Shown here: in pieces, positions 17,724 to 34,206 of the stretch
How the letters are laid out: each line of letters begins with the position of its first letter
Numbering within the stretch: the first letter of the stretch is position 1
Source of the DNA: Kineococcus aurantiacus
Lineage (GTDB): Bacteria > Actinomycetota > Actinomycetes > Actinomycetales > Kineococcaceae
Assembly: GCF_013409345.1 (NCBI RefSeq)
Contig: NZ_JACCBB010000001.1
Coordinates: 3,100,001 to 3,164,000 of the forward strand
Length of the DNA stretch: 64,000 nt
Reading direction: 5' to 3'
Notes under the pieces: generated by a model
Told to the model about the DNA's origin: nothing
Seen by the model: the letters and a program-made list of their open reading frames with translations, nothing else
The model's database searches: none
Translations under genes and position numbers: made by a program

Positions 17724-17743
17724 CCCAGGAGCGCTCGACCCCC

Positions 17744-17891
17744 GAAGTGCTTGATCACCGAAGTGCTTGATCACCGAAGTGCTTGATCACCGAAGTGCTT
17801 GATCACCGAAGTGCTTGATCACCGAAGTGCTTGATCACCGCGGGCGTCCCCACCTCCCCGTGATCAAGCACTGCCGTGATCAAGCACTTCC
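17744..17891. repeat. Six tandem copies plus two inverted copies of a 16-bp repeat
   Basis: The unit GAAGTGCTTGATCACC is repeated six times head-to-tail with no spacer (17744-17839). After a 20-nt GC-rich loop, two reverse-complement copies follow (17860-17875 and 17876-17891), so the tract can fold into a long hairpin. It fills most of the 303-bp gene-free gap between the flippase-like gene and the ABC importer operon. The remaining 17892-18026 should hold the importer promoter, but I see no convincing -35/-10 pair. Related elements lie at 32010-32095 and 49500-49533. Copy number is likely to vary between strains. Confidence 0.93.
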
Positions 17892-24152: not shown

Positions 24153-25115
24153 TCATGACCGCGACGACCCGCTGGACACCGCGACGCGCTCGCGCAGCGG
24201 GCCAGCCGCGGTCAGGTCGAGCGTGGTGCCGGACCCGCGCAGCGTGGGGAACGCCTCGCGCAGGAACTCCCGGCTGCGGCGCGCGGCCTCCCGGTGCACC
24301 GGGTCGTGGTCGTACAGCTCCACGCTGATCCAGCCGTCGAACCCCGAGGCCAGCACCGCGCCCACGGCGTCGAAGTCCACGTCGCCGTCCCCGGGGACCA
24401 GGTGCGCGTGCACCCGGTCGGCGATGTCCTCCACCTGCAGGTGCCGCGTCACCGGCAGGTGCCGCTCCAGGGAGGCCAGCGCGTCGTCCTCGACGACGAC
24501 GCAGTGCCCCAGGTCCTGGCTCAGCCACAGGTCCGGGCTGCCGGTGCGCTCCAGCACGGCCGCCACCTCGGCGTTCGTCCGGTAGTGGAAGTCCGGTTCG
24601 GGCTCGATGCCCAGCACGGTGCTGCCGCGGGGCAGCCCGGCCGCGTCGAGGGACTCGTGCAGGGTGTCGAGCAGCACGGCCACGGCCTCGTCGAACCAGG
24701 CGTCGGCCTGCGCGGCGCTCACCTCGGGCCGCCGGCGGCCCGAGGAGAACACCACCAGCGGGACGCCGACGAGGACGCCGGCGCGGACGCCGCGCTGCAG
24801 CAGGTCCAGCCGCCGGGCCCGCTCGGCGGGGTCGGGGTCGACGAGGGCGGGTTCGAACGGGGAGTCGCCCAGCAGGTGCGGGTCGCCGGTGGCCAGGCTG
24901 CAGGCCGTCAGGCCCGTGTCCGCCAGGGTGGCGCGCAGGCGCTCGGCGTCGGCGGCCGAGAACGTCCACGGGTCGACGTGCTGGTGGTTCAGGGACAGTT
25001 CGATCCCGTCGTACCCGAGGTCGGCCAGGGTGCGGACGGCGTCGTGGACGTCCAGCGAGCGCAGGCCGTTGGCGTTGTACGCCAAGCGGGTCGTGGGGGT
25101 CGGGGGAACGGGCAC
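24153..25115 (-). CDS. Xylose-isomerase-like TIM-barrel sugar isomerase/epimerase
   Basis: 320 aa protein of the AP-endonuclease-2/IolE-like TIM-barrel superfamily. Strand and metal-site features: RLAYNANGLRSLDVHDAVRT, LGYDGIELSLNHQHVD, GIEPEPDFHY, LSQDLGHC, HLQVEDIADRVHAHLVPGDG, and the C-terminal FDGWISVELYDHD. The pattern of Glu, Asp and His at strand ends fits a divalent-metal isomerase or epimerase acting on a sugar, inosose or their phosphates. The GTG start has GAGGAG 5 nt upstream. It is divergent from the HD-like/Gfo/MBL/YcaO operon across 261 bp and probably belongs to the same pathway; substrate unknown. Confidence 0.8.
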   Translation of the reverse strand: MPVPPTPTTRLAYNANGLRSLDVHDAVRTLADLGYDGIELSLNHQHVDPWTFSAADAERLRATLADTGLTACSLATGDPHLLGDSPFEPALVDPDPAERARRLDLLQRGVRAGVLVGVPLVVFSSGRRRPEVSAAQADAWFDEAVAVLLDTLHESLDAAGLPRGSTVLGIEPEPDFHYRTNAEVAAVLERTGSPDLWLSQDLGHCVVVEDDALASLERHLPVTRHLQVEDIADRVHAHLVPGDGDVDFDAVGAVLASGFDGWISVELYDHDPVHREAARRSREFLREAFPTLRGSGTTLDLTAAGPLRERVAVSSGSSRS

Positions 25116-25278
25116 GAGGGCTCCTCGGGTCGCGGTGGGGTGCGGGACGGCGACGTCGGCGTGACCGGGTGGTGGAGCCGCGGCGAACTGCCCGTGAACC
25201 GTTGGTTCCAGGACCGGCGACGGGACGGTCCCGGTTCGACGTAACCACGTCCGCAGGGGCCCCGCACCGCGAGAACCG

Positions 25279-25292
25279 GTGAGGATCCTCAC
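25279..25292. promoter_or_regulatory. Perfect palindrome in the divergent promoter of the YcaO locus
   Basis: GTGAGGATCCTCAC is a perfect 14-bp palindrome midway between the TIM-barrel and HD-like genes. A second inverted repeat, GAACC-GTT-GGTTC, lies at 25196-25208. Either could be an operator that controls both directions. No regulator gene lies in the locus. Confidence 0.4.
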
Positions 25293-25376
25293 GGGAGTTC
25301 GGCGCGCGGACCCCGGGGGGCGCGGGCATGGTGTTCTGGTGCTCTTCATCCAGACCGCGGGTGAGCGAGGTCAGCG

Positions 25377-26357
25377 GTGACCGCCCCCGTGAACCCCGGT
25401 GAACTCCCCGCGACCACTCCCGGTACCGACGCGCCCGTCGTCGAACCCTCCACCCTGACCCTCCTGCGGGAGGTCGCGGACGTGAAGCGCTTGCGCGACG
25501 CCCGCGGCCCCGGTTCGCTGGCCGACCGCGCCTTCACCCGTTCCTGGCGGCTCCTGCTGCGGGACTGGTCCCCGGAACAGGTGCAGCGGCTGGCGCTGCG
25601 CGAGGTCGCGCACACCCTCGTCGCGGCCCGGCTGGCCGGTGTCGACGCCGGTGTGCTGGCCACCGCGGGCCTGGACCGCGCCGAACGCCTGACCGTGCTG
25701 CAGCGCGCCTTCGACGCCGTCGCGGCCACCGCGCAGGGGGGTTTCGGCGACCTCGCCGACCTGCGCGCGGCGCTGGACCCCGACCCCTTCGACGAGGACC
25801 TGCTGCCCGCCGCGCCGCCGTTCGTCGACGCCCTCGTGCGCCAGCCGCGCGCCGGGGCCACCCACCCCGAACTCCCGCGCGTCGTCGTCGAACCGCCCGA
25901 GAGCCACGGCGACCACTGCTTCGTCACCGCCGTGTACTCCGCCCTCGTCGCGCCCCGCTTCGGGGTGCAGCGCGGTACGGCGTTCCTCGTGGCGCTGGCC
26001 CACCACCTGCCCAACGGCGACCTGCCCGACGCGGGTTTCGGCGGCGAGGTGCTGCTCGGCGAGCACTACCTGCCCGTGCTGGCCGCCCTGGAGGAACGGT
26101 CCCTGCGGCAGCTGCCGGCCGGCCTGGCCGCGCACCTGCGGGACCTGCTCCCGCAACGGGAGACGACGGGCACGGACGTCGGGCGGGTGTTCAACACCGC
26201 CGACGTGCTGGACCGCGTCCTGCAGGTCCACCACCACGCCCGCGCCGCCGCGTTCACCGCCGCCCAGGCCCTCGACGACCTGGACATCGTGCACCCCGGT
26301 GCCGTGCAGCAGTTCCAGCTCGGCGTGCTCGCCGGCGCCGGCATCCCCGTGCGCTGA
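25377..26357 (+). CDS. HD-like domain protein, first gene of the YcaO operon
   Basis: 326 aa soluble protein that I do not recognise as a named family. Residues 175-280 look like an HD-type metal-dependent helical domain: ESHGDHCFVTAVYSAL, then LVALAHHLPNGDLPDAGFGG (His209-His210 in the place of the HD pair) and VFNTADVLDR supplying a late Asp. The N-terminal 170 residues are helical and Arg/Leu/Ala-rich with no motif. GTG start with GCGAGG upstream. It leads six co-directional genes (22-bp gap to the next, then only 4-bp overlaps). A hydrolase or lyase step on a small metabolite is the most I would infer. Confidence 0.7.
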   Translation: MTAPVNPGELPATTPGTDAPVVEPSTLTLLREVADVKRLRDARGPGSLADRAFTRSWRLLLRDWSPEQVQRLALREVAHTLVAARLAGVDAGVLATAGLDRAERLTVLQRAFDAVAATAQGGFGDLADLRAALDPDPFDEDLLPAAPPFVDALVRQPRAGATHPELPRVVVEPPESHGDHCFVTAVYSALVAPRFGVQRGTAFLVALAHHLPNGDLPDAGFGGEVLLGEHYLPVLAALEERSLRQLPAGLAAHLRDLLPQRETTGTDVGRVFNTADVLDRVLQVHHHARAAAFTAAQALDDLDIVHPGAVQQFQLGVLAGAGIPVR

Positions 26358-26379
26358 AACCCACCGATCGAGGAGTTCC

Positions 26380-27498
26380 GTGACCGTCCCCGCCCAGCAC
26401 GACCAGCAGCACGACGGACGCACCGGCTGGGTCATCGCCGGTGCGGGCTGGGTCGCGCGCGACCACATGGCCCCCGCCCTGGCCGCCTCCGACAGCAGCC
26501 GCGTCGTCGCCGTCGTCGACCGCGACCTCGACGCCGCGCGGTCCCTGGCCGCCCGGTTCCCCGGCGCGCTCGCCCACGACGACCTCGCCGCGGCCTTCGC
26601 CACCCCCGGGGCGCAGATCGCCTACGTGGCGACCCCGAACCACGCCCACCGCGAGGTCGCGCTGGCCGCCGCGCAGGCCGGTCTGGCCGTTCTGTGCGAG
26701 AAACCCCTCGCCGCCGACCTCGACGACGCCGCGGCCCTGGTGGCCGGCTGCGAGCAGGCCGGGGTCGTGGCCGCGACCGCGTTCGACCAGCGGTTCCACC
26801 CCGCCCACGAGGTCGTGGCGGGGATGCTCGCCCGCGGCGAGCTGGGCACGGTGACGGCCGTCCGGGTCGTGTACGCCTGCTGGCTGCCGCCGGGCTGGGC
26901 GCCGCCGGGCAGCACCACGGGCGACAACTGGCGCGTCGACCCCGTCCGCGCCGGTGGCGGGGCGTACGTGGACCTCGCCCCGCACGGCCTGGACCTCGTG
27001 GGGACGCTGCTGGGCGAGGACGTCGTGCGGGCCACGACCCTCCTGCAGCACCGCGTCCACGACTACGCCGTGGACGACGGTTCCGTCCTCGTGGGCAGCA
27101 CGGCCTCGGGGGTGCTGGTGACGATCTCGAACTCCTTCAACACCGTGGAGACCCTGCCGCGGCGCCGCCTGGAGATCGTCGGGACGGCCGGCCAGCTCGT
27201 CCTGACGAACACCATGGGTCAGGACGCCGGGGGCCGCGTCGAGTTCGTCGACGCCGCCACGGGCGAGTCACGCGACGTCGAGTTCGACGGCGAGACGTCC
27301 CCGTTCACCGGGGAACTGCGCGCGCTGGAGGCCGCGGTGACCGGCGGGTCGCCGTGGCGGTTCCCGATGGCGCGCGACCTGCGCCTGCTGCACCTGCTGC
27401 ACGAAGCCATCGGCGCCGGTGCCCCCGAGTCCGGTGCCCCCGAGTCCGCGACCCCGCCCGCGTCCCCGCAGCCCGCGACCCTGGAGGCACGACGATGA
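26380..27498 (+). CDS. Gfo/Idh/MocA family NAD(P)-dependent oxidoreductase
   Basis: 372 aa dehydrogenase of the glucose-fructose oxidoreductase / inositol dehydrogenase family. The Rossmann motif is IAGAGWVARDHMAPAL (about residues 19-34), followed by VVAVVDRDLDAA, YVATPNHAHREVALAA and the catalytic-lysine motif CEKPLA (Lys108). The C-terminal half contains RAGGGAYVDLAPHGLDLVG with the conserved Asp/His pair. Likely oxidises a hydroxyl of a sugar or cyclitol to a ketone, or reduces one. The C-terminus carries a short low-complexity tail (GAPESGAPESATPP). GTG start with GAGGAG upstream; stop overlaps the MBL start (ATGA). Confidence 0.88.
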   Translation: MTVPAQHDQQHDGRTGWVIAGAGWVARDHMAPALAASDSSRVVAVVDRDLDAARSLAARFPGALAHDDLAAAFATPGAQIAYVATPNHAHREVALAAAQAGLAVLCEKPLAADLDDAAALVAGCEQAGVVAATAFDQRFHPAHEVVAGMLARGELGTVTAVRVVYACWLPPGWAPPGSTTGDNWRVDPVRAGGGAYVDLAPHGLDLVGTLLGEDVVRATTLLQHRVHDYAVDDGSVLVGSTASGVLVTISNSFNTVETLPRRRLEIVGTAGQLVLTNTMGQDAGGRVEFVDAATGESRDVEFDGETSPFTGELRALEAAVTGGSPWRFPMARDLRLLHLLHEAIGAGAPESGAPESATPPASPQPATLEARR

Positions 27499-28430
27499 CC
27501 GGCCCCGACGACTCCCACGCCCTGCGCGGTGTCCGCGCCGGGGAACTGGCGCCGCTGCCCACCCGGGCCCACCGCCAGCACCGCGCGTACTCGTGCACGA
27601 ACTGCGGGCACTGGCAGCGCTGGTTCGCCCACACCCCGCCGCCGTCGTGCCCGGTGTGCTCGGACGTCCGCAACGAACTGCCCGTGGACGGTTTCGCGTT
27701 CCTGCGCGAGACCGAGGTCGACGCCCTGGTGACGACGTCGTGGCGCGAGGCCGTCCCGGGGGTCACGGAGTTCTGGTGCGACCCCGTCGTGGGCCTGGGC
27801 TCGCACGGGTGGGTCCTGGAGACCGCCGACGGCCTGCTGGGTTTCGAGGCCGCGCCCTGGTACTCCGCGGACGCGCTGGCCGAGCTGCGCCGCCGCGGCG
27901 GGCTGCGCGTCCTGGCCTCCAGCCACGTCCACGGCTTCGGCGGGCTGTGGCAGCTGCAGGACGAGCTCGACCCGCCCGTCGTCTCGGTCGGGGTCCACGA
28001 CCTCACCTGGACCAAGGCGTTCCGCGTCACCTGGCCCGCCGACGACCGGACGGAACTGGCCCCCGGCATCACCCTGCACCGCACGGGCGGGCACTTCCCC
28101 GGGCACAGCGTCCTGCACGACGCCGACCGCGGGCTGTTCTTCTGCGGGGACTCCCTGAAGATCGACCTCGACGCCGACGGGAACGCCACGGCCCTCAGCG
28201 CCCACAAGGCGTTCCACGCGCAGATCCCGCTCTCGCGCGCCGAGCTGCGCAGCATGCGCGAGATCGTCGGCGCGCTGGAGTTCGACACCGTGTTCAGCCC
28301 GTTCGAGTTCGCCCGCGGCGTCACCACCCGCCACGTCGTCGCCCTGGTGGACCACATGCTCGCCAACCCGCCGTCGGCGGCACCCGTCCCGATGGACGTC
28401 CTCGCCGCGAAGGTCGGGGTGTTCGCGTGA
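27495..28430 (+). CDS. Zinc-ribbon + metallo-beta-lactamase-fold hydrolase
   Basis: 311 aa protein with an N-terminal rubredoxin-like zinc ribbon (Cys34-x2-Cys37 and Cys52-x2-Cys55 in SCTNCGHW and SCPVCSDV) fused to a metallo-beta-lactamase fold. Metal-site residues are SSHVHGFGGLW (His144, His146; the usual HxHxDH Asp-His is replaced by Gly-Phe), TGGHFPGHSVL (His200, His204) and FFCGDSL (Asp219). The altered first motif may mean one metal or a changed chemistry. Its place between the Gfo/Idh/MocA and YcaO genes suggests hydrolysis or a redox step in the same pathway. Confidence 0.82.
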   Translation: MTGPDDSHALRGVRAGELAPLPTRAHRQHRAYSCTNCGHWQRWFAHTPPPSCPVCSDVRNELPVDGFAFLRETEVDALVTTSWREAVPGVTEFWCDPVVGLGSHGWVLETADGLLGFEAAPWYSADALAELRRRGGLRVLASSHVHGFGGLWQLQDELDPPVVSVGVHDLTWTKAFRVTWPADDRTELAPGITLHRTGGHFPGHSVLHDADRGLFFCGDSLKIDLDADGNATALSAHKAFHAQIPLSRAELRSMREIVGALEFDTVFSPFEFARGVTTRHVVALVDHMLANPPSAAPVPMDVLAAKVGVFA

Positions 28431-29992
28431 GGACCACCCACCCCCTGACCGTCGACCACCCCGTGCAGGAGGGCGGCGACCACCGCGCCACCGACCGGTT
28501 CCGCGACGTCCTCGGCGAGCGCGACCGGTTCCAGTTCCCCACCTACCGCCTCGACACCGTCGGCGTGCCGTCCTGGTGGACGATCGCGGCGACCGGCACC
28601 GCCGGCGCGGCGGCCATCGGCCACGGCTACGGCGCCACCGACGCCGACGCCCGCCGCTCCAGCTGGGGCGAGTCCGCCGAGCTGGGGCTGCTGCGCCGGA
28701 AGGTCTCCACCCTGGAGCACCGCCGCGGCACCCGCGCCGACCTCGTCGCCGAGTTCGGCGCCGACGCCGTGCTGGACCCGCCCGCGGTGTGCCTGGACGC
28801 GGGCGCCGCCTACGCCCCCGACGCGCCGCTGAACTGGCTGCCGCTGCAGCGGTTCGGCACGGGGGAACGGGTCTGGGCCCCCGCCGACGTCGTGCTGCGC
28901 GACGCCGACGAGCTCCCCCCGGGGTTCATCGACGACCTGCCGCGCCTGGTGACCCGCCACGGCAACGGCCTCGGGGCCGGGGACAGCCTGGACCGGGCCG
29001 TGGCCCACGGCATCGGCGAGCTCCTCCAGCGCGACGGCAACGGCACCCGCTTCCGCGCCCTGGACACCGGCGTCGTCCTCGACCTCGGCCCCGGTGACGG
29101 GTACGTGCAGGACCCCGTGACGCGCGAGGCGCTGGCGAAGCTGCGCGCACAGGGGGTGCACGTCGTGCCCAAGCTCGCCAACGACTGGTCGGGGATCGTC
29201 AACGTCACCGTCGTCGGCGCCGACGAGCACCCCCTGCAACCGGTCATGGTGACCGCCGCCGGCGAGGCCGCCCACCCCGACCGCGAGGTGGCGCTGCGCA
29301 AGGCCGTCCTGGAGTTCGCCGCGGCACGCTCGCGCAAGGCGTTCACCCACGGCGACCTCGACGCCGTGCGGGCCATCAGCCCCGACGGGTACGTCGACCG
29401 CTACGCCGCCGACCCCTCCACCCAGGAGCAGCGCGCGCTGCGCGGGATGCTCGGCTGGCTCCAGCGCGACGCCGCGCAGCTGCGGGCGCTGCTCGAACCC
29501 GTCGTGCTGGCCGAGCGCAGCCGCCGGCGCTTCGACACCCTGCCCACGTGGGACGCCCCCGAGGGCGCCGACGAGCAGCAGGCGCTGGCCGCGCACCTCG
29601 TCGGGCTGCTGCGCGAGCGGGGTTTCGACGTCCTCGTCCTGGACTGCTCGCACGGGGACGTCGCCGTGGCCCGCGTCGTCGTGCCCGGCCTGGAGGTCGA
29701 GATCGTCAGCTACGGGCGCATCGGCGAGCGCGGCCTGAGCGACCTGCTGGAACGCGGCGACGGCCGCACCGGGCTGCACGGCATCGTCGGCCTGGGCGTC
29801 CCCGGCGCCGCGGGGGTCCCCGCCACCGCCGCCCCCGTCCACCTCACCGACGCCGCGCGCGAGCGCGTCGGCGGCCCGGCGTGGCTGGACCGCGCCGCGC
29901 TCGACCGGGTCCTGGGCGACCTGTACCCGCTGTACCGCGAACCGGCACTGCACGCGGCCGCCGTGGCCCGCGCGAAGGGATGGACCGCATGA
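28427..29992 (+). CDS. YcaO-family ATP-dependent enzyme
   Basis: 521 aa YcaO protein. The ATP/Mg site segments are SSWGESAELG (about residues 78-87), GNGLGAGDSLDRAVAHGIGE followed by LLQRD (179-203), and ALRKAVLEFAAARSRKAF (289-306). The C-terminal ARVVVPGLEVEIVSYGRIGE is another family hallmark. YcaO enzymes phosphorylate amide oxygens to make azolines, thioamides or amidines, mostly in peptides. This one lacks the C-terminal PxPxP tail of RiPP cyclodehydratases, and no E1-like/Ocin-ThiF partner, TfuA or SagB dehydrogenase is nearby. It may therefore act alone on a non-peptide amide. GTG start overlaps the MBL stop (GTGA). Confidence 0.88.
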   Translation: MRTTHPLTVDHPVQEGGDHRATDRFRDVLGERDRFQFPTYRLDTVGVPSWWTIAATGTAGAAAIGHGYGATDADARRSSWGESAELGLLRRKVSTLEHRRGTRADLVAEFGADAVLDPPAVCLDAGAAYAPDAPLNWLPLQRFGTGERVWAPADVVLRDADELPPGFIDDLPRLVTRHGNGLGAGDSLDRAVAHGIGELLQRDGNGTRFRALDTGVVLDLGPGDGYVQDPVTREALAKLRAQGVHVVPKLANDWSGIVNVTVVGADEHPLQPVMVTAAGEAAHPDREVALRKAVLEFAAARSRKAFTHGDLDAVRAISPDGYVDRYAADPSTQEQRALRGMLGWLQRDAAQLRALLEPVVLAERSRRRFDTLPTWDAPEGADEQQALAAHLVGLLRERGFDVLVLDCSHGDVAVARVVVPGLEVEIVSYGRIGERGLSDLLERGDGRTGLHGIVGLGVPGAAGVPATAAPVHLTDAARERVGGPAWLDRAALDRVLGDLYPLYREPALHAAAVARAKGWTA

Positions 29993-31296
29993 GGATCTGC
30001 TTCGTCAGCCGCCGCTACTGGCCGGCGGTCTCGGGCATGAGCGTCTACGCCGAGAAGCTGCTGGAGGGTCTCGTGGCCCGCGGCCACGACGTCGTGCTCG
30101 TCTCGCAGTTCCGCGGGGACCCCACCGGCAGCGCCGTCTACGGCGGGGGCCCGCCCCCGGCCGACCGCGTCCCCGCGGGGGTGCGCGCCGTGGGGCTGGA
30201 GGCGCTGGGGGAGCAGCGGGTCGCCGACGGCGCCCCCGCCGACTTCGACGCCGACATCGCCACGATGCGCGCCACCGTCGAGCGCCTGCACGCCGAGGAA
30301 CCCTTCGACCTGCTGCACGCCCAGTACGCCTGGCCCACCGGCATGGCGGTCCTGGAGGCGTCGGCGTCCCTGGGGCTGCCGTCGGTGGTCAGCGTCCAGG
30401 GCGGCGACGGGCACTGGGTCGGGCTGTGCTGCCCGGCGCACTCGGTGGGCATCCGCACCGTCCTCGACCACGCCGGGGCCGTCCTCATCGGCTCGCAGAC
30501 GTTCGCCGACGAGGTCGTCGAGCACCACGGCACCGACCCGGCCCGCTTCGACCTGGTCGGCGGGGCCACCGACACCACGGCCTTCACCCCCGCCGACGAC
30601 ACCGCCGTCGGCGCGCTGCCCGCGCAGGGCCCGGTGACGCTGCTGTTCCACGGCCGCGTGGACCGCCGCAAGGGCGTCCTGGACCTCCTGCACGCCCTGG
30701 CCGCGCTGCGCGCGGACGGCCGCGACGTGCGGCTGCTGGTCTCCGGCATCGGCCCCGACGTCACCGCCGTGGCCGACCTCGTCGCCGAGCTGGGCCTGGG
30801 CGCGGCCGTCGAGCAGCGCGGCTACGTCCCGTACACCGACGCCCCGGCGGTCTACCGCGACGGGCACGTGTTCGTCTCGCCCACCCAGTCGGAGGGTTTC
30901 TCCAACACCATCCTGGAGGCGATGGCGGCCGGCCTGCCGGTCGTGACGACCCGCACCGTGGGGGTCGTGGACTGCGTGCGCGACGGGGAGAACGGCCTGC
31001 TGCACGAGGTCGGGGACGTCGAGGGCCTCGCCGCGGCGCTGCGCCGCCTCCTGGACGACCCCGCCCTGGGCCCGAAGCTGGCCCAGCAGGCGCTGGCCGA
31101 GGTGCGCGACGTGTGGTCGTGGCCGGCCCTCACCGCGCGCGTGGAGGCCGTCTACGACCGCCTCGCCGGGACCACCCCGGACACCGCGTGGACGGCGCTG
31201 GACCCGGCGGAGCGGCCCACCAGCCGCGGGCGCGGGGTCGAGCCCGCGACCGCGGACGCCGACTGCCGGTTCCTGGCCACCCCGCACCTGCTGTGA
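29989..31296 (+). CDS. GT4 family glycosyltransferase (MshA/BshA-like architecture)
   Basis: 435 aa GT-B glycosyltransferase. The N-terminal glycine-rich loop is RRYWPAVSGMSVYAEKLLEG, the acceptor half contains LLHAQYAWPTGMAVLEA, and the donor half LFHGRVDRRKGVLDLLHAL. The E-x7-E motif is intact in SPTQSEGFSNTILEAMAAGL. ATG 29989 overlaps the YcaO stop (ATGA), and GAAGGGA lies 7 nt upstream. It is followed at once by a PIG-L deacetylase. This is the same pairing as in mycothiol (MshA/MshB) and bacillithiol (BshA/BshB) synthesis, suggesting transfer of GlcNAc that is then deacetylated. The acceptor is unknown. Confidence 0.87.
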   Translation: MRICFVSRRYWPAVSGMSVYAEKLLEGLVARGHDVVLVSQFRGDPTGSAVYGGGPPPADRVPAGVRAVGLEALGEQRVADGAPADFDADIATMRATVERLHAEEPFDLLHAQYAWPTGMAVLEASASLGLPSVVSVQGGDGHWVGLCCPAHSVGIRTVLDHAGAVLIGSQTFADEVVEHHGTDPARFDLVGGATDTTAFTPADDTAVGALPAQGPVTLLFHGRVDRRKGVLDLLHALAALRADGRDVRLLVSGIGPDVTAVADLVAELGLGAAVEQRGYVPYTDAPAVYRDGHVFVSPTQSEGFSNTILEAMAAGLPVVTTRTVGVVDCVRDGENGLLHEVGDVEGLAAALRRLLDDPALGPKLAQQALAEVRDVWSWPALTARVEAVYDRLAGTTPDTAWTALDPAERPTSRGRGVEPATADADCRFLATPHLL

Positions 31297-32024
31297 GCCC
31301 CACCCGGGTCCTGGCCGTCTCCCCGCACCTGGACGACGCGGCGTTCTCGGCGGGCGCCCTGCTGGCCGGCCTGGCCGCGGCGGGCGCGCAGGTGCACGTG
31401 GTGACGGTGTTCACCGCGACCGTGCCCGACCCGACGGGGTTCGCGCTGGCGTGCCAGACCGACAAGGGCCTGGGCCCGGAGGTGGACTACATGGCCGTGC
31501 GCCGCGCCGAGGACGCCGCCGCGATGGCGGCCCTGGGCACCACGGGCCACCACCTGCCCCTGGCCGAGGCCCCGCACCGCGGGTACGGCAGCGCCGCGGC
31601 CCTGTTCGGGCCCGTCGCGGCCGGCGACGAGGACGGCCCGGCCACCGTCGGGGCCGCCCTGGAGGGCTTCCTCGACGCGGACCGCCTCGGCGGCCCGGTG
31701 GACCTGCTGCTGGGCCCGCAGGGCCTGGGGGACCACGTCGACCACCGGCACGTGCGGGCCGCCGTCGACGCGCTCGCCGTGCGCCGGGGGCTGCCGCTGG
31801 CCCGGTGGGCCGACACCCCGTACGTGCTGCGCCCCGGGGCCCAGACCCCCACCGGCACCGCGCGCCGCGCCGAACCCGCGGAGCTGGACGCCAAGGTGGA
31901 GGCCTGCGCCGCCTACGCCACCCAGCTCGGCTTCCAGTTCGACGGGACCGCCGCGATGGCCCGGGCGCTGCGGGACTGCCCGGAGACCTTCGACGCCCCC
32001 GTGCCCGATCCCCGCAGTGCTTGA
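31293..32024 (+). CDS. PIG-L family N-deacetylase
   Basis: 243 aa zinc amidase of the LmbE/PIG-L family. VLAVSPHLDDAAFSAGALL provides the His12/Asp14/Asp15 metal-and-base motif, and GDHVDHRHV provides the late His (about 151). MshB, BshB and GlcNAc-PI deacetylase share this set. Predicted to remove the acetyl group from an N-acetylhexosamine added by the GT4 enzyme. GTG start overlaps the GT4 stop by 4 bp. The last codons and the TGA stop lie inside the left arm of the 32010-32095 repeat hairpin, so the repeat supplies the C-terminal residues Ser-Ala. Confidence 0.9.
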   Translation: MSPTRVLAVSPHLDDAAFSAGALLAGLAAAGAQVHVVTVFTATVPDPTGFALACQTDKGLGPEVDYMAVRRAEDAAAMAALGTTGHHLPLAEAPHRGYGSAAALFGPVAAGDEDGPATVGAALEGFLDADRLGGPVDLLLGPQGLGDHVDHRHVRAAVDALAVRRGLPLARWADTPYVLRPGAQTPTGTARRAEPAELDAKVEACAAYATQLGFQFDGTAAMARALRDCPETFDAPVPDPRSA

Positions 32025-32095
32025 TCACCGCAGTGCTCGATCACCGCGGGACCTCGCGGTGATCGAGCACTGCGGGGATCAAGCACTCTGCGGGG
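32010..32095. repeat. Long hairpin built from four copies of the AGTGCTTGATCACC repeat
   Basis: Two direct copies (one CTTGATC, one CTCGATC variant) are followed by two inverted copies, folding into a 21-bp inner stem (32028-32048 / 32055-32075, loop GGACCT) and an 11-bp outer stem (32016-32026 / 32077-32087). It starts inside the end of the PIG-L gene and would terminate the YcaO operon. Same family as 17744-17891 and 49500-49533. The rest of the gap to 32212 shows no gene. Confidence 0.9.
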
Positions 32096-32212
32096 CCCTC
32101 CCCGGCCCCCGGAGCGTGACGGTCCCGCCCGGGCCTGCGGCAGCCGGGTGAAACCTCGCCGCCGGGGCGCCGAACGGTCCAGCTCGCGCCCCCACCGGCC
32201 GAGCACCAAGAC

Positions 32213-33699: not shown

Positions 33700-34206
33700 C
33701 TACCGCGGCCCCGCGGCGCGGGCCTGCTCGACCCCGGAGAGGGCCTCGCGCAGCTGCTGGATCCAGTCCTGCTGGTGCTGCCCGACCAGGCGCACGCACC
33801 AGGCCAGGGCCTCGGAGCGGGTCCGGGCGACGCCGGCGTCGACGAGGGTGTCGAGCACCTGGCGCTGCGGCTGCCGCAGGCGGGTCATGACGGGGGTGGC
33901 GAGGTTGGTGAACAGCTCCTCGGTCTGGCCGCACGCCGCGCCCCAGGCGACCTTGCGGCCGAACAGGGACTCGGCCTCGTCGGCGATGCGCATGCGCGCG
34001 GGGCGGGTCTCCTCGCGGAAGCGGGCGATGCGGCCCGCCTCGGCGCGGCGGGTGGCGGCGGTCCCGCCCTCGGTGCCGTCGGGGACGGCGAGCCGTCCCG
34101 TGACCACGATCTCCTCGCGGTCGACGGAGACCGCGGGGGCGGTCTCGAACCAGTCCTGCGGCAGCCGGCCGGACAGCCAGGCCGCGATGTCGGCGTCGTC
34201 GCTCAT
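33700..34206 (-). CDS. Conserved hypothetical protein
   Basis: 168 aa soluble protein not recognised as a named family. It begins MSDDADIAAWLSGRLPQDWF and contains VDREEIVVTGRLAVP followed by a basic helix rich in Arg (RRAEAGRIARFREETRPARM). The C-terminal LDTLVDAGVARTRSEALAWC resembles a ribbon-helix-helix or small DNA-binding helix pair but is not diagnostic. The ATG lies 6 nt after a good -10, so the mRNA is probably leaderless. Downstream of, and co-directional with, the LysR gene, but with its own promoter. Confidence 0.65.
   Translation of the reverse strand: MSDDADIAAWLSGRLPQDWFETAPAVSVDREEIVVTGRLAVPDGTEGGTAATRRAEAGRIARFREETRPARMRIADEAESLFGRKVAWGAACGQTEELFTNLATPVMTRLRQPQRQVLDTLVDAGVARTRSEALAWCVRLVGQHQQDWIQQLREALSGVEQARAAGPR

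Follow-up and report, generated by a model that had tools for sequence, protein, structure and literature searches.

The window, a 64,000-nucleotide stretch within contig 1 of the 5.03-Mb genome of Kineococcus aurantiacus, carries at positions 24153 to 32024 a locus of seven genes in which a YcaO-domain protein is encoded among sugar- and cyclitol-type enzymes. All seven reading frames are real, and each of the seven locus proteins falls in its named family in Pfam. The features are as follows:

24153..25115, (-), TIM-barrel isomerase/epimerase/dehydratase-like protein (TIM); Pfam AP_endonuc_2, 2.2e-33; start codon uncertain (~25115)
25377..26357, (+), HD-like protein (HD), the first operon gene here; Pfam HD_3, 1.5e-4, below cut-off
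26380..27498, (+), Gfo/Idh/MocA oxidoreductase (GFO); Pfam GFO_IDH_MocA, 9.9e-24
27495..28430, (+), zinc-ribbon metallo-beta-lactamase-fold protein (MBL) with a reduced metal motif; Pfam Lactamase_B, 8.7e-6
28427..29992, (+), YcaO-domain protein, 521 amino acids; Pfam YcaO, 1.3e-46, 159.9 bits
29989..31296, (+), GT4 glycosyltransferase; Pfam GT4 domains, best 9.2e-36
31293..32024, (+), PIG-L N-deacetylase; Pfam PIG-L, 1.4e-10
32016..32087, strand not assigned, long hairpin 3' of PIG-L, built of repeats; likely transcript end

The TIM gene is transcribed divergently from the other six, which form an operon with 4-bp overlaps at four junctions (GFO/MBL, MBL/YcaO, YcaO/GT4, and GT4/PIG-L) and a 22-bp gap between HD and GFO. 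The initial annotation had treated the seven genes as a single locus, which is borne out by the frames, the families, the overlaps from GFO through PIG-L, and a conserved neighborhood. Its label “HD-like” was also apt, with an HD_3 score of 22.1 bits that is just below the cut-off of 22.5. The boundaries that it gave are correct for K. aurantiacus but miss two genes, encoding an inositol-phosphate synthase (MIPS) and a methyltransferase (MT), each found in 14 of the 23 operon loci described below.

Conservation and spread of the operon

Within the family, one YcaO each is found in 11 of 12 genomes (11 of the 12 belong to the genus). In eight of the 12, including that of the window, the protein is 76 to 100% identical to the window's, and all eight keep the neighborhood, which contig ends cut in two of them; the neighborhood is thus kept in 8 of the 11 genomes of the genus. 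TIM is divergent in six of these eight loci, the window included, and the remaining two are those cut by contig ends. The other three genomes (G001, G003, and G010) encode a YcaO only 46 to 47% identical, without operon neighbors in the 12 to 20 kb fetched and without an MBL match anywhere in the genome at an E value of 0.001. The methyltransferase is present in 2 of the 11 genomes of the genus, which also contains no close copy of the operon synthase and only a distant one (28 to 30% identical over part of its length).

Beyond the genus, samples of 394 genomes of the class and 396 of the phylum were searched. YcaO matches were found in 21 of the 394 class genomes, 9 of them strong (E value of 3e-76 or better). 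MBL matches of >500 bits occur in six class genomes, all six beside a close YcaO, and the best MBL score in the remaining 388 is 127.1 bits. Seven operon MBL sequences went into the MBL profile, and six of these come from the very genomes that it ranks best; the informative part of this result is the absence elsewhere; the chance figure for MBL/YcaO co-occurrence (1.7e-11) ignores the origin of the profile and is overstated. Because the neighborhood is found in all eight genomes with a close YcaO and MBL orthologues are absent elsewhere in the 394, the locus is conserved beyond chance. The search for this neighborhood that the initial annotation had recommended shows that the genes do co-occur in other genomes, in the genus and beyond.

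The window locus is a reduced form of an operon of up to nine genes, the longest form of which has the nearly fixed order MIPS-HD-MT-GFO-MBL-YcaO-TIM-GT4-PIG-L. We found this operon at 23 loci in three phyla; its hosts span two actinobacterial classes, and plasmids of Roseomonas, Methylobacterium, and Hymenobacter also carry it. GFO and YcaO are present in all 23 loci, GT4 in 22, HD, MBL, TIM, and PIG-L in 21 each, and MIPS (as the first operon gene) and MT in 14 each. Misses in these counts include contig ends in L027, L029, L063, and L214; broken genes were counted as present (GFO in L212 and L221 and GT4 in L221); L002 and L003 were taken as L027 and L028 and counted once; and the 3.1-kb locus L012 was excluded from trees and counts. 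Junctions are mostly 4-bp overlaps in the four operon loci measured, and TIM precedes YcaO in L058 and L060. In the phylum sample, 10 of the 396 genomes match the YcaO, consisting of the window's own and nine of a single family (f59) in another class, in which the operon is found in six genomes and is absent from three. One of the f59 loci (L214) is cut by a contig end and has no methyltransferase between HD and GFO.

A search of plasmids for the YcaO at an E value of 1e-30 returned four records, from Methylobacterium aquaticum, M. bullatum, Roseomonas haemaphysalidis, and Hymenobacter volaticus. All four hold the operon with its gene order unchanged, the Hymenobacter operon being without the methyltransferase, and three of the four plasmids are typed as nonmobilizable. 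MBL matches (E value of 1e-15) are found in 123 of 72,556 plasmid records; among the 40 of these that were listed, 2 are of the operon kind (Roseomonas and Hymenobacter) and the rest are at most 31% identical. In the Hymenobacter locus (L221, 12117 to 19286), neither the oxidoreductase gene nor the GT4 gene lies in a single reading frame, and next to the operon is a gene annotated as bshB1. On the Roseomonas plasmid (L222, 17990 to 21661), the operon is followed by three annotated genes, mdoH and two of the spore photoproduct lyase family. A phage-borne family was rejected with zero matches at an E value of 1e-10, and an anti-phage system was rejected because PADLOC matched none of the seven proteins at an E value of 1e-5.

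The encoded enzymes

The YcaO domain (PF02624) scores 159.9 bits against a cut-off of 25.7, which places the protein in the superfamily. Residues E82, E85, N180, G181, G183 to G185, E198, E296, and R301 are invariant in 14 of 14 aligned sequences. The motifs shared by YcaO proteins serve ATP binding, and, as a member of the superfamily, the enzyme would be expected to activate amides in an ATP-dependent manner. A C-terminal PxPxP is the mark of azoline-forming YcaO proteins; it is absent from all 14 sequences, each of which has PLYREPxxH near its end. Scores are far below the cut-offs for both the SagD type (TIGR03604; 58.3 versus 219.25 bits) and the McrA-glycine thioamidation type (TIGR03266; 78 versus 365 bits). 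The best match in a profile search of the PDB was MJ1094 (8.3e-23), followed by LynD and TruD, and a fold search of the predicted structure placed an archaeal YcaO first. The structural model is only fair (mean predicted local distance difference test score of 60.4; predicted template modeling score of 0.64), and its fold match supports membership in the superfamily rather than any substrate.

A YcaO was found in 52 of 197 class genomes. In a tree of 84 rows, comprising 14 of the window's YcaO family and 70 of the 95 other places listed, the 14 lie together on one side of a branch with an SH-aLRT support of 100 and a length of 1.28. This clade groups (support of 86) with L161, a single row on a long branch, and with 15 further rows, and a TfuA gene adjoins the YcaO gene in five of five of these 15 that were scanned. 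The family tree that the initial annotation had also recommended therefore places the window's YcaO in a clade of its own and not with known RiPP (ribosomally synthesized and posttranslationally modified peptide) cyclodehydratases. TfuA (PF07812) was not found among the operon genes and window flanks scanned, and neither an E1-like partner or C protein nor a RiPP-like protein was found among 17 window proteins (7 of the locus and 10 flanking), in keeping with the earlier claim that no cyclodehydratase partner is present. The overlapping or nearly abutting genes leave no room for a precursor gene inside the operon; short peptide genes outside it were not sought.

The domain and PDB tests of the inositol-phosphate synthase were made on 1 of the 14, that of L058. 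It matches PF07994 (212.9 bits) and PF01658 (111.7 bits), and its nearest solved relatives in a PDB profile search are inositol-3-phosphate synthases (7nwr, 1.4e-82; 1u1i, 4.7e-57). It is far from 1gr0, a synthase of the mycobacterial type, and it falls short of the mycothiol-type equivalog TIGR03450 (47.1 versus 638). The first genes of L221 and L222 are annotated as inositol-3-phosphate synthase. A five-membered cyclitol product was considered and dropped, since a five-membered cyclitol-phosphate synthase is a far poorer match (only 5.9e-10) to the operon synthase than are the inositol-3-phosphate synthases. The methyltransferase gene product matches methyltransferase domains below cut-off.

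Among PDB profiles, GT4 ranks Tll1590 first and BshA second, followed in third and fourth place by 3c4q and 3c48, presumably MshA structures, with an annotated D-inositol-3-phosphate glycosyltransferase seventh; its EX7E motif is invariant in seven of seven aligned sequences. PIG-L matches Dbv21, an unnamed deacetylase (6iiy), and teicoplanin Orf2, and it resembles the glycopeptide N-acetylglucosaminyl-type sugar N-deacetylases. Its metal motif is kept, with HLDD and HVDH invariant in six of six. TIM resembles IolE, IolO, and hydroxypyruvate isomerase only weakly, its IolE score being far below the cut-off, and the window's TIM shares only 32 to 37% identity with the TIM proteins encoded inside the operon at five other loci. 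GFO has a weak likeness to xylose dehydrogenase, IolG, and others, with EKP and DxxxH invariant in six of six aligned sequences. HD is a probable phosphohydrolase, to judge from its family; H177, H180, H209-H210, and D276 are invariant in six of six, with “HH” in place of the “HD” of HD proteins, and a PDB search found no significant solved relative. The metal motif of the metallo-beta-lactamase family is HxHxDH, in place of which MBL has HVHG[FY]G in seven of seven aligned sequences. The zinc ribbon match of MBL is far below the Pfam cut-off, and no PDB relative was found at an E value of 0.01.

Two settings and a proposed pathway

The final tree contains 40 loci of the window's YcaO family, of which 23 carry the operon and 2 (L010 and L059) belong to neither setting. 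In the remaining 15, the operon is missing and YcaO is accompanied nearby by a sugar ABC importer, a CE4-like gene, or both, which is new here; together with the methyltransferase, the inositol-phosphate synthase, and the three-phylum spread, this importer/CE4 setting goes beyond what the initial annotation had described. In the stretches fetched (that of L217 begins inside YcaO), a CE4-like gene is near in 14 of the 15 and a sugar-type importer in 11; the permeases were named by likeness and by eye, and two binding proteins were scanned. Genes for a binding protein, two permeases, and YcaO are consecutive on one strand in five genomes (three belonging to the window's genus and two to the other class); in 5 of the 15 loci, the YcaO gene comes directly after same-strand genes for sugar-type permeases. 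An importer is also near YcaO in six Klenkia loci, lying tail to tail with it in L004.

YcaO is the constant of these loci, and its neighbors are the variable. The settings change four times on the tree, and three of the changes are forced by well-supported branches. A single origin of the importer/CE4 setting is rejected by the approximately unbiased test (P = 1.6e-5 with 43 rows and 2.8e-7 with 39 rows), with P values that are not blind, as the two settings were defined after the neighborhoods had been viewed. The tree rows for L027 and L031 to L033 carry extra upstream in-frame residues, most of which are dropped by the column filter.

Proteins of the NodB type carry DD in their first motif and HxxxH in their second. 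In an alignment of 20 CE4-like sequences, HxxxH is present in all 20, Phe or Tyr replaces the first Asp in every sequence, and the second Asp is kept in 19 and replaced by Glu in the other; Pfam Polysacc_deac_1 is found in four of the five members scanned, one of the four under the cut-off. A CE4-like gene is present in 9 of the 11 genus genomes and adjoins an importer in 8 of these 9 (not G005), including five operon genomes with YcaO elsewhere. The window's own genome has a CE4-like gene (contig 1, 3403291 to 3404292) and a sugar-type importer, without YcaO, about 270 kb from the operon. Two side observations concern loci outside these patterns. In G057 (L059, 8113 to 10631), which lacks the operon, YcaO overlaps an adenosine-deaminase-family gene (PF00962, 4.4e-104) by 4 bp. 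In G039 (L192, 8514 to 15749), a CE4-like relative lies near genes resembling, by eye, those for selenophosphate synthetase, SelA, and SelB. A link to a gene near YcaO in Modestobacter (L009) that looks LarC-like by eye was rejected, as this gene is not among the 14 most shared importer-type gene families listed.

Taking the observed gene families, gene order, conservation, and alternation of settings together, we infer the substrates and reactions of a pathway, with an order of steps that follows from the families. In our judgment it is an evenly balanced matter whether the operon is dedicated to a small cyclitol-aminosugar metabolite (a pseudodisaccharide), with YcaO acting on this metabolite whether it is made or imported. 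Inositol phosphate would be supplied by the operon's own synthase or, in Kineococcus, by the housekeeping synthase, and HD would strip the phosphate. GFO and TIM may then oxidize and isomerize or dehydrate the cyclitol, which the methyltransferase, where present, would decorate. GT4 would attach an N-acetyl-aminosugar, PIG-L would free its amine, and MBL might carry out a hydrolytic or related step. Finally, YcaO with ATP may activate an amide-type carbonyl of the small molecule or its acceptor, which could be attacked by an amine to give an amidine or by sulfide to give a thioamide; no ribosomal peptide would take part.

The cyclitol chemistry anticipated by the initial annotation is supported by the inositol-phosphate synthase gene that comes first in the operon at 14 of the 23 loci. 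That annotation had also predicted an azoline, thioamide, or amidine in the product. YcaO is recurrently paired with a deacetylase-fold protein (PIG-L or CE4-like), which suggests the freed amine as its nucleophile and hence an amidine; a thioamide is argued for by the nearest kin of the YcaO, and an azoline would be the least favored of the three. Because some relatives without the building genes keep YcaO near an importer and a CE4-like protein, these probably take up the same metabolite, and the two settings are probably two ways to obtain one compound, by making it or by taking it up. A more specific version, to which we give only tentative credence, is that this is the first YcaO with a carbohydrate substrate. 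It would join the sugar amine freed by PIG-L to an amide or vinylogous-amide carbonyl, giving a glycosyl-amidine (or thioamide) as a shared compound that the nine-gene operon, also plasmid borne, makes and for which the importers keep only the YcaO step.

Several observations weigh against this pathway. With altered metal motifs and no close solved relatives, the steps given to HD and MBL are guesses; both Methylobacterium operons are without MBL, and no methyltransferase is present in 9 of the 23 loci, some of them at contig ends. The CE4-like partner, lacking the first NodB Asp throughout, may not be a deacetylase, its relatives also occur in other surroundings (L192, L193, and L194), and two operon-type genomes of the genus (G004 and G008) have no CE4-like match. 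Sugar importers are common, and one is near YcaO in only 11 of 15 loci, representing at most two separate tree branches, with the Klenkia importer on the opposite strand. Finally, the settings were named with the neighborhoods in view, and two loci fit neither.

Among other explanations, an unlikely one is that the operon makes a low-molecular-weight sulfur cofactor, with a glucosaminyl-inositol-type scaffold as in mycothiol and a YcaO-made thioamide replacing the work of the cysteine ligase. The scaffold enzymes parallel those of mycothiol, the neighboring tree group is of the TfuA type, and the nearest YcaO proteins by profile and fold are archaeal, of a kind tied to McrA thioamidation in a passage of PMC5589413. 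However, no sulfur carrier, rhodanese, or TfuA is found among the operon genes scanned, and the need for a second thiol is not obvious when all four actinobacterial operon genomes tested encode a canonical MshA. It is slightly less likely that YcaO serves as an ATP-dependent amidase, hydrolyzing an amide or lactam of the metabolite, which would make the importer-type loci catabolic. PDB entry 7u58 (MusD) mentions in its title a YcaO-mediated, ATP-dependent peptidase activity, and LacI-like and glycoside-hydrolase-like neighbors (named by eye) occur at some importer loci, but ATP-driven hydrolysis would be odd beside two hydrolase folds, and an operon that starts with an inositol-phosphate synthase looks biosynthetic.

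YcaO could instead modify a cellular protein, as on McrA, with the sugar genes serving to build an unrelated glycan or one attached to protein. The solved relatives found have peptide or protein substrates or none that is stated, but the place of YcaO among sugar genes in 23 of 23 operon loci and directly behind sugar-type permeases in 5 of the 15 importer/CE4 loci makes this improbable. More improbable still is a mycosporine-like product, in which inositol would undergo oxidation and dehydration to a cyclohexanedione or cyclohexenone that is then O-methylated, and YcaO would activate the vinylogous acid or amide for attack by an amine to yield a UV-absorbing or antioxidant glycoside. GFO and TIM resemble IolG and IolE at low scores, and the methyltransferase is present in 14 of 23 loci; many named hosts (Kineococcus, Klenkia, Modestobacter, Methylobacterium, and Hymenobacter) are UV- or desiccation-tolerant genera, a possible association that would count in its favor. 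However, the IolE and IolG scores are far under the cut-offs, and only 2 of 11 genus genomes have the methyltransferase. Last, an azoline RiPP cluster whose precursor peptide was overlooked has the presence of a YcaO domain in its favor but is rejected as very improbable by the SagD-type score (58 versus 219), the absence of PxPxP, the gene overlaps that leave no precursor gap, and the absence of an E1-like partner among the scanned neighbors.

If the proposed cyclitol-aminosugar pathway is correct, its product would be a new small molecule of wide occurrence that may serve in stress or redox metabolism, and it would add a substrate class to those of YcaO enzymes, which to our knowledge have been studied almost wholly on peptides and proteins. 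Repeated switching between making and importing would show a shared metabolite moving through communities. The locus is also a compact test case for YcaO, with an evident precursor (inositol phosphate), aminosugar-type enzymes, and culturable or plasmid-bearing hosts in three phyla, and the natural importer strains could serve as bioassay partners. In passages of the respective papers, “non-TOMM YcaOs” (TOMM, thiazole/oxazole-modified microcin) of unknown substrate are named (PMC4603692), McrA thioamidation involving YcaO is described (PMC5589413), and a YcaO that makes a backbone amidine is mentioned (PMC11002830). We found no description of the operon in the titles and abstract openings of the open-access papers searched, which agrees with the earlier claim that no described pathway has this gene set and does not show its absence from print.

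Turning to the surroundings of the Kineococcus operon, the hairpin after PIG-L has arms of 33 nucleotides that are 97% complementary; the stretch from 32005 to 32100 folds at -79.2 kcal/mol (z = -12.3), and the hairpin probably ends the operon transcript. It is built of near copies of a 16-nucleotide repeat (AGTGCTTGATCACCGA), which also forms a tandem array with inverted copies at 17730 to 17889, and the two occurrences look like one repeated element at gene ends. Nine of the 10 flanking proteins scanned have matches, to an oligopeptide ABC system (five genes), Clp-N, GGDEF, a LysR regulator, and an EamA transporter; the product of the gene at 33703 to 34206 has zero domain matches.

Comparison with known systems

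The ebo cluster is a conserved operon of unclear product that, like this one, contains a TIM-barrel sugar isomerase. The present operon differs in that no UbiA or dehydroquinate-synthase-like domain is found among its proteins scanned here. The glycopeptide deacetylases Dbv21 and teicoplanin Orf2 provide the best-matching named PDB profiles for PIG-L, but no glycopeptide genes are found among the scanned neighbors, and a different acceptor is presumed. With the TOMM/SagD proteins, the window's YcaO shares the domain and its common motifs; it differs in having PLYREPxxH instead of PxPxP, and a C protein and precursor were not found among the genes scanned. The TfuA-type and archaeal McrA YcaO proteins, which likewise lack PxPxP, are its closest relatives in the profile and predicted-fold comparisons and also in the tree, where the grouping has moderate support (86). 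However, the window's YcaO forms a separate clade on a long branch (1.28), in a sugar-cyclitol context and without TfuA among the scanned genes.

The initial annotation had read GT4 plus PIG-L as the signature of mycothiol or bacillithiol synthesis. The likeness stands, in that GT4 resembles the BshA and MshA types, but the operon belongs to neither set. With mycothiol it shares an inositol-phosphate synthase, and with both pathways an MshA/BshA-like GT4 and a PIG-L deacetylase. GT4 scores 96.8 against the MshA cut-off of 462.5 and 88.1 against the BshA cut-off of 273.7, and PIG-L scores 22.7 against the MshB cut-off of 224.35 and 14.0 against the BshB1 cut-off of 182.5. Neither a cysteine ligase (MshC) nor an acetyltransferase domain was found among the operon proteins scanned, MshC not having been searched for genome-wide. 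A canonical MshA (619 bits) is encoded elsewhere in the window's genome (contig 1, 1298743 to 1299975), and an MshA above the cut-off is found in each of the three other operon genomes tested. A mycothiol locus was therefore rejected, given these scores and the MshA elsewhere. Overall, the operon differs from the mycothiol and bacillithiol pathways in what it adds to a common core, namely, HD, the methyltransferase, GFO, TIM, MBL, and YcaO.

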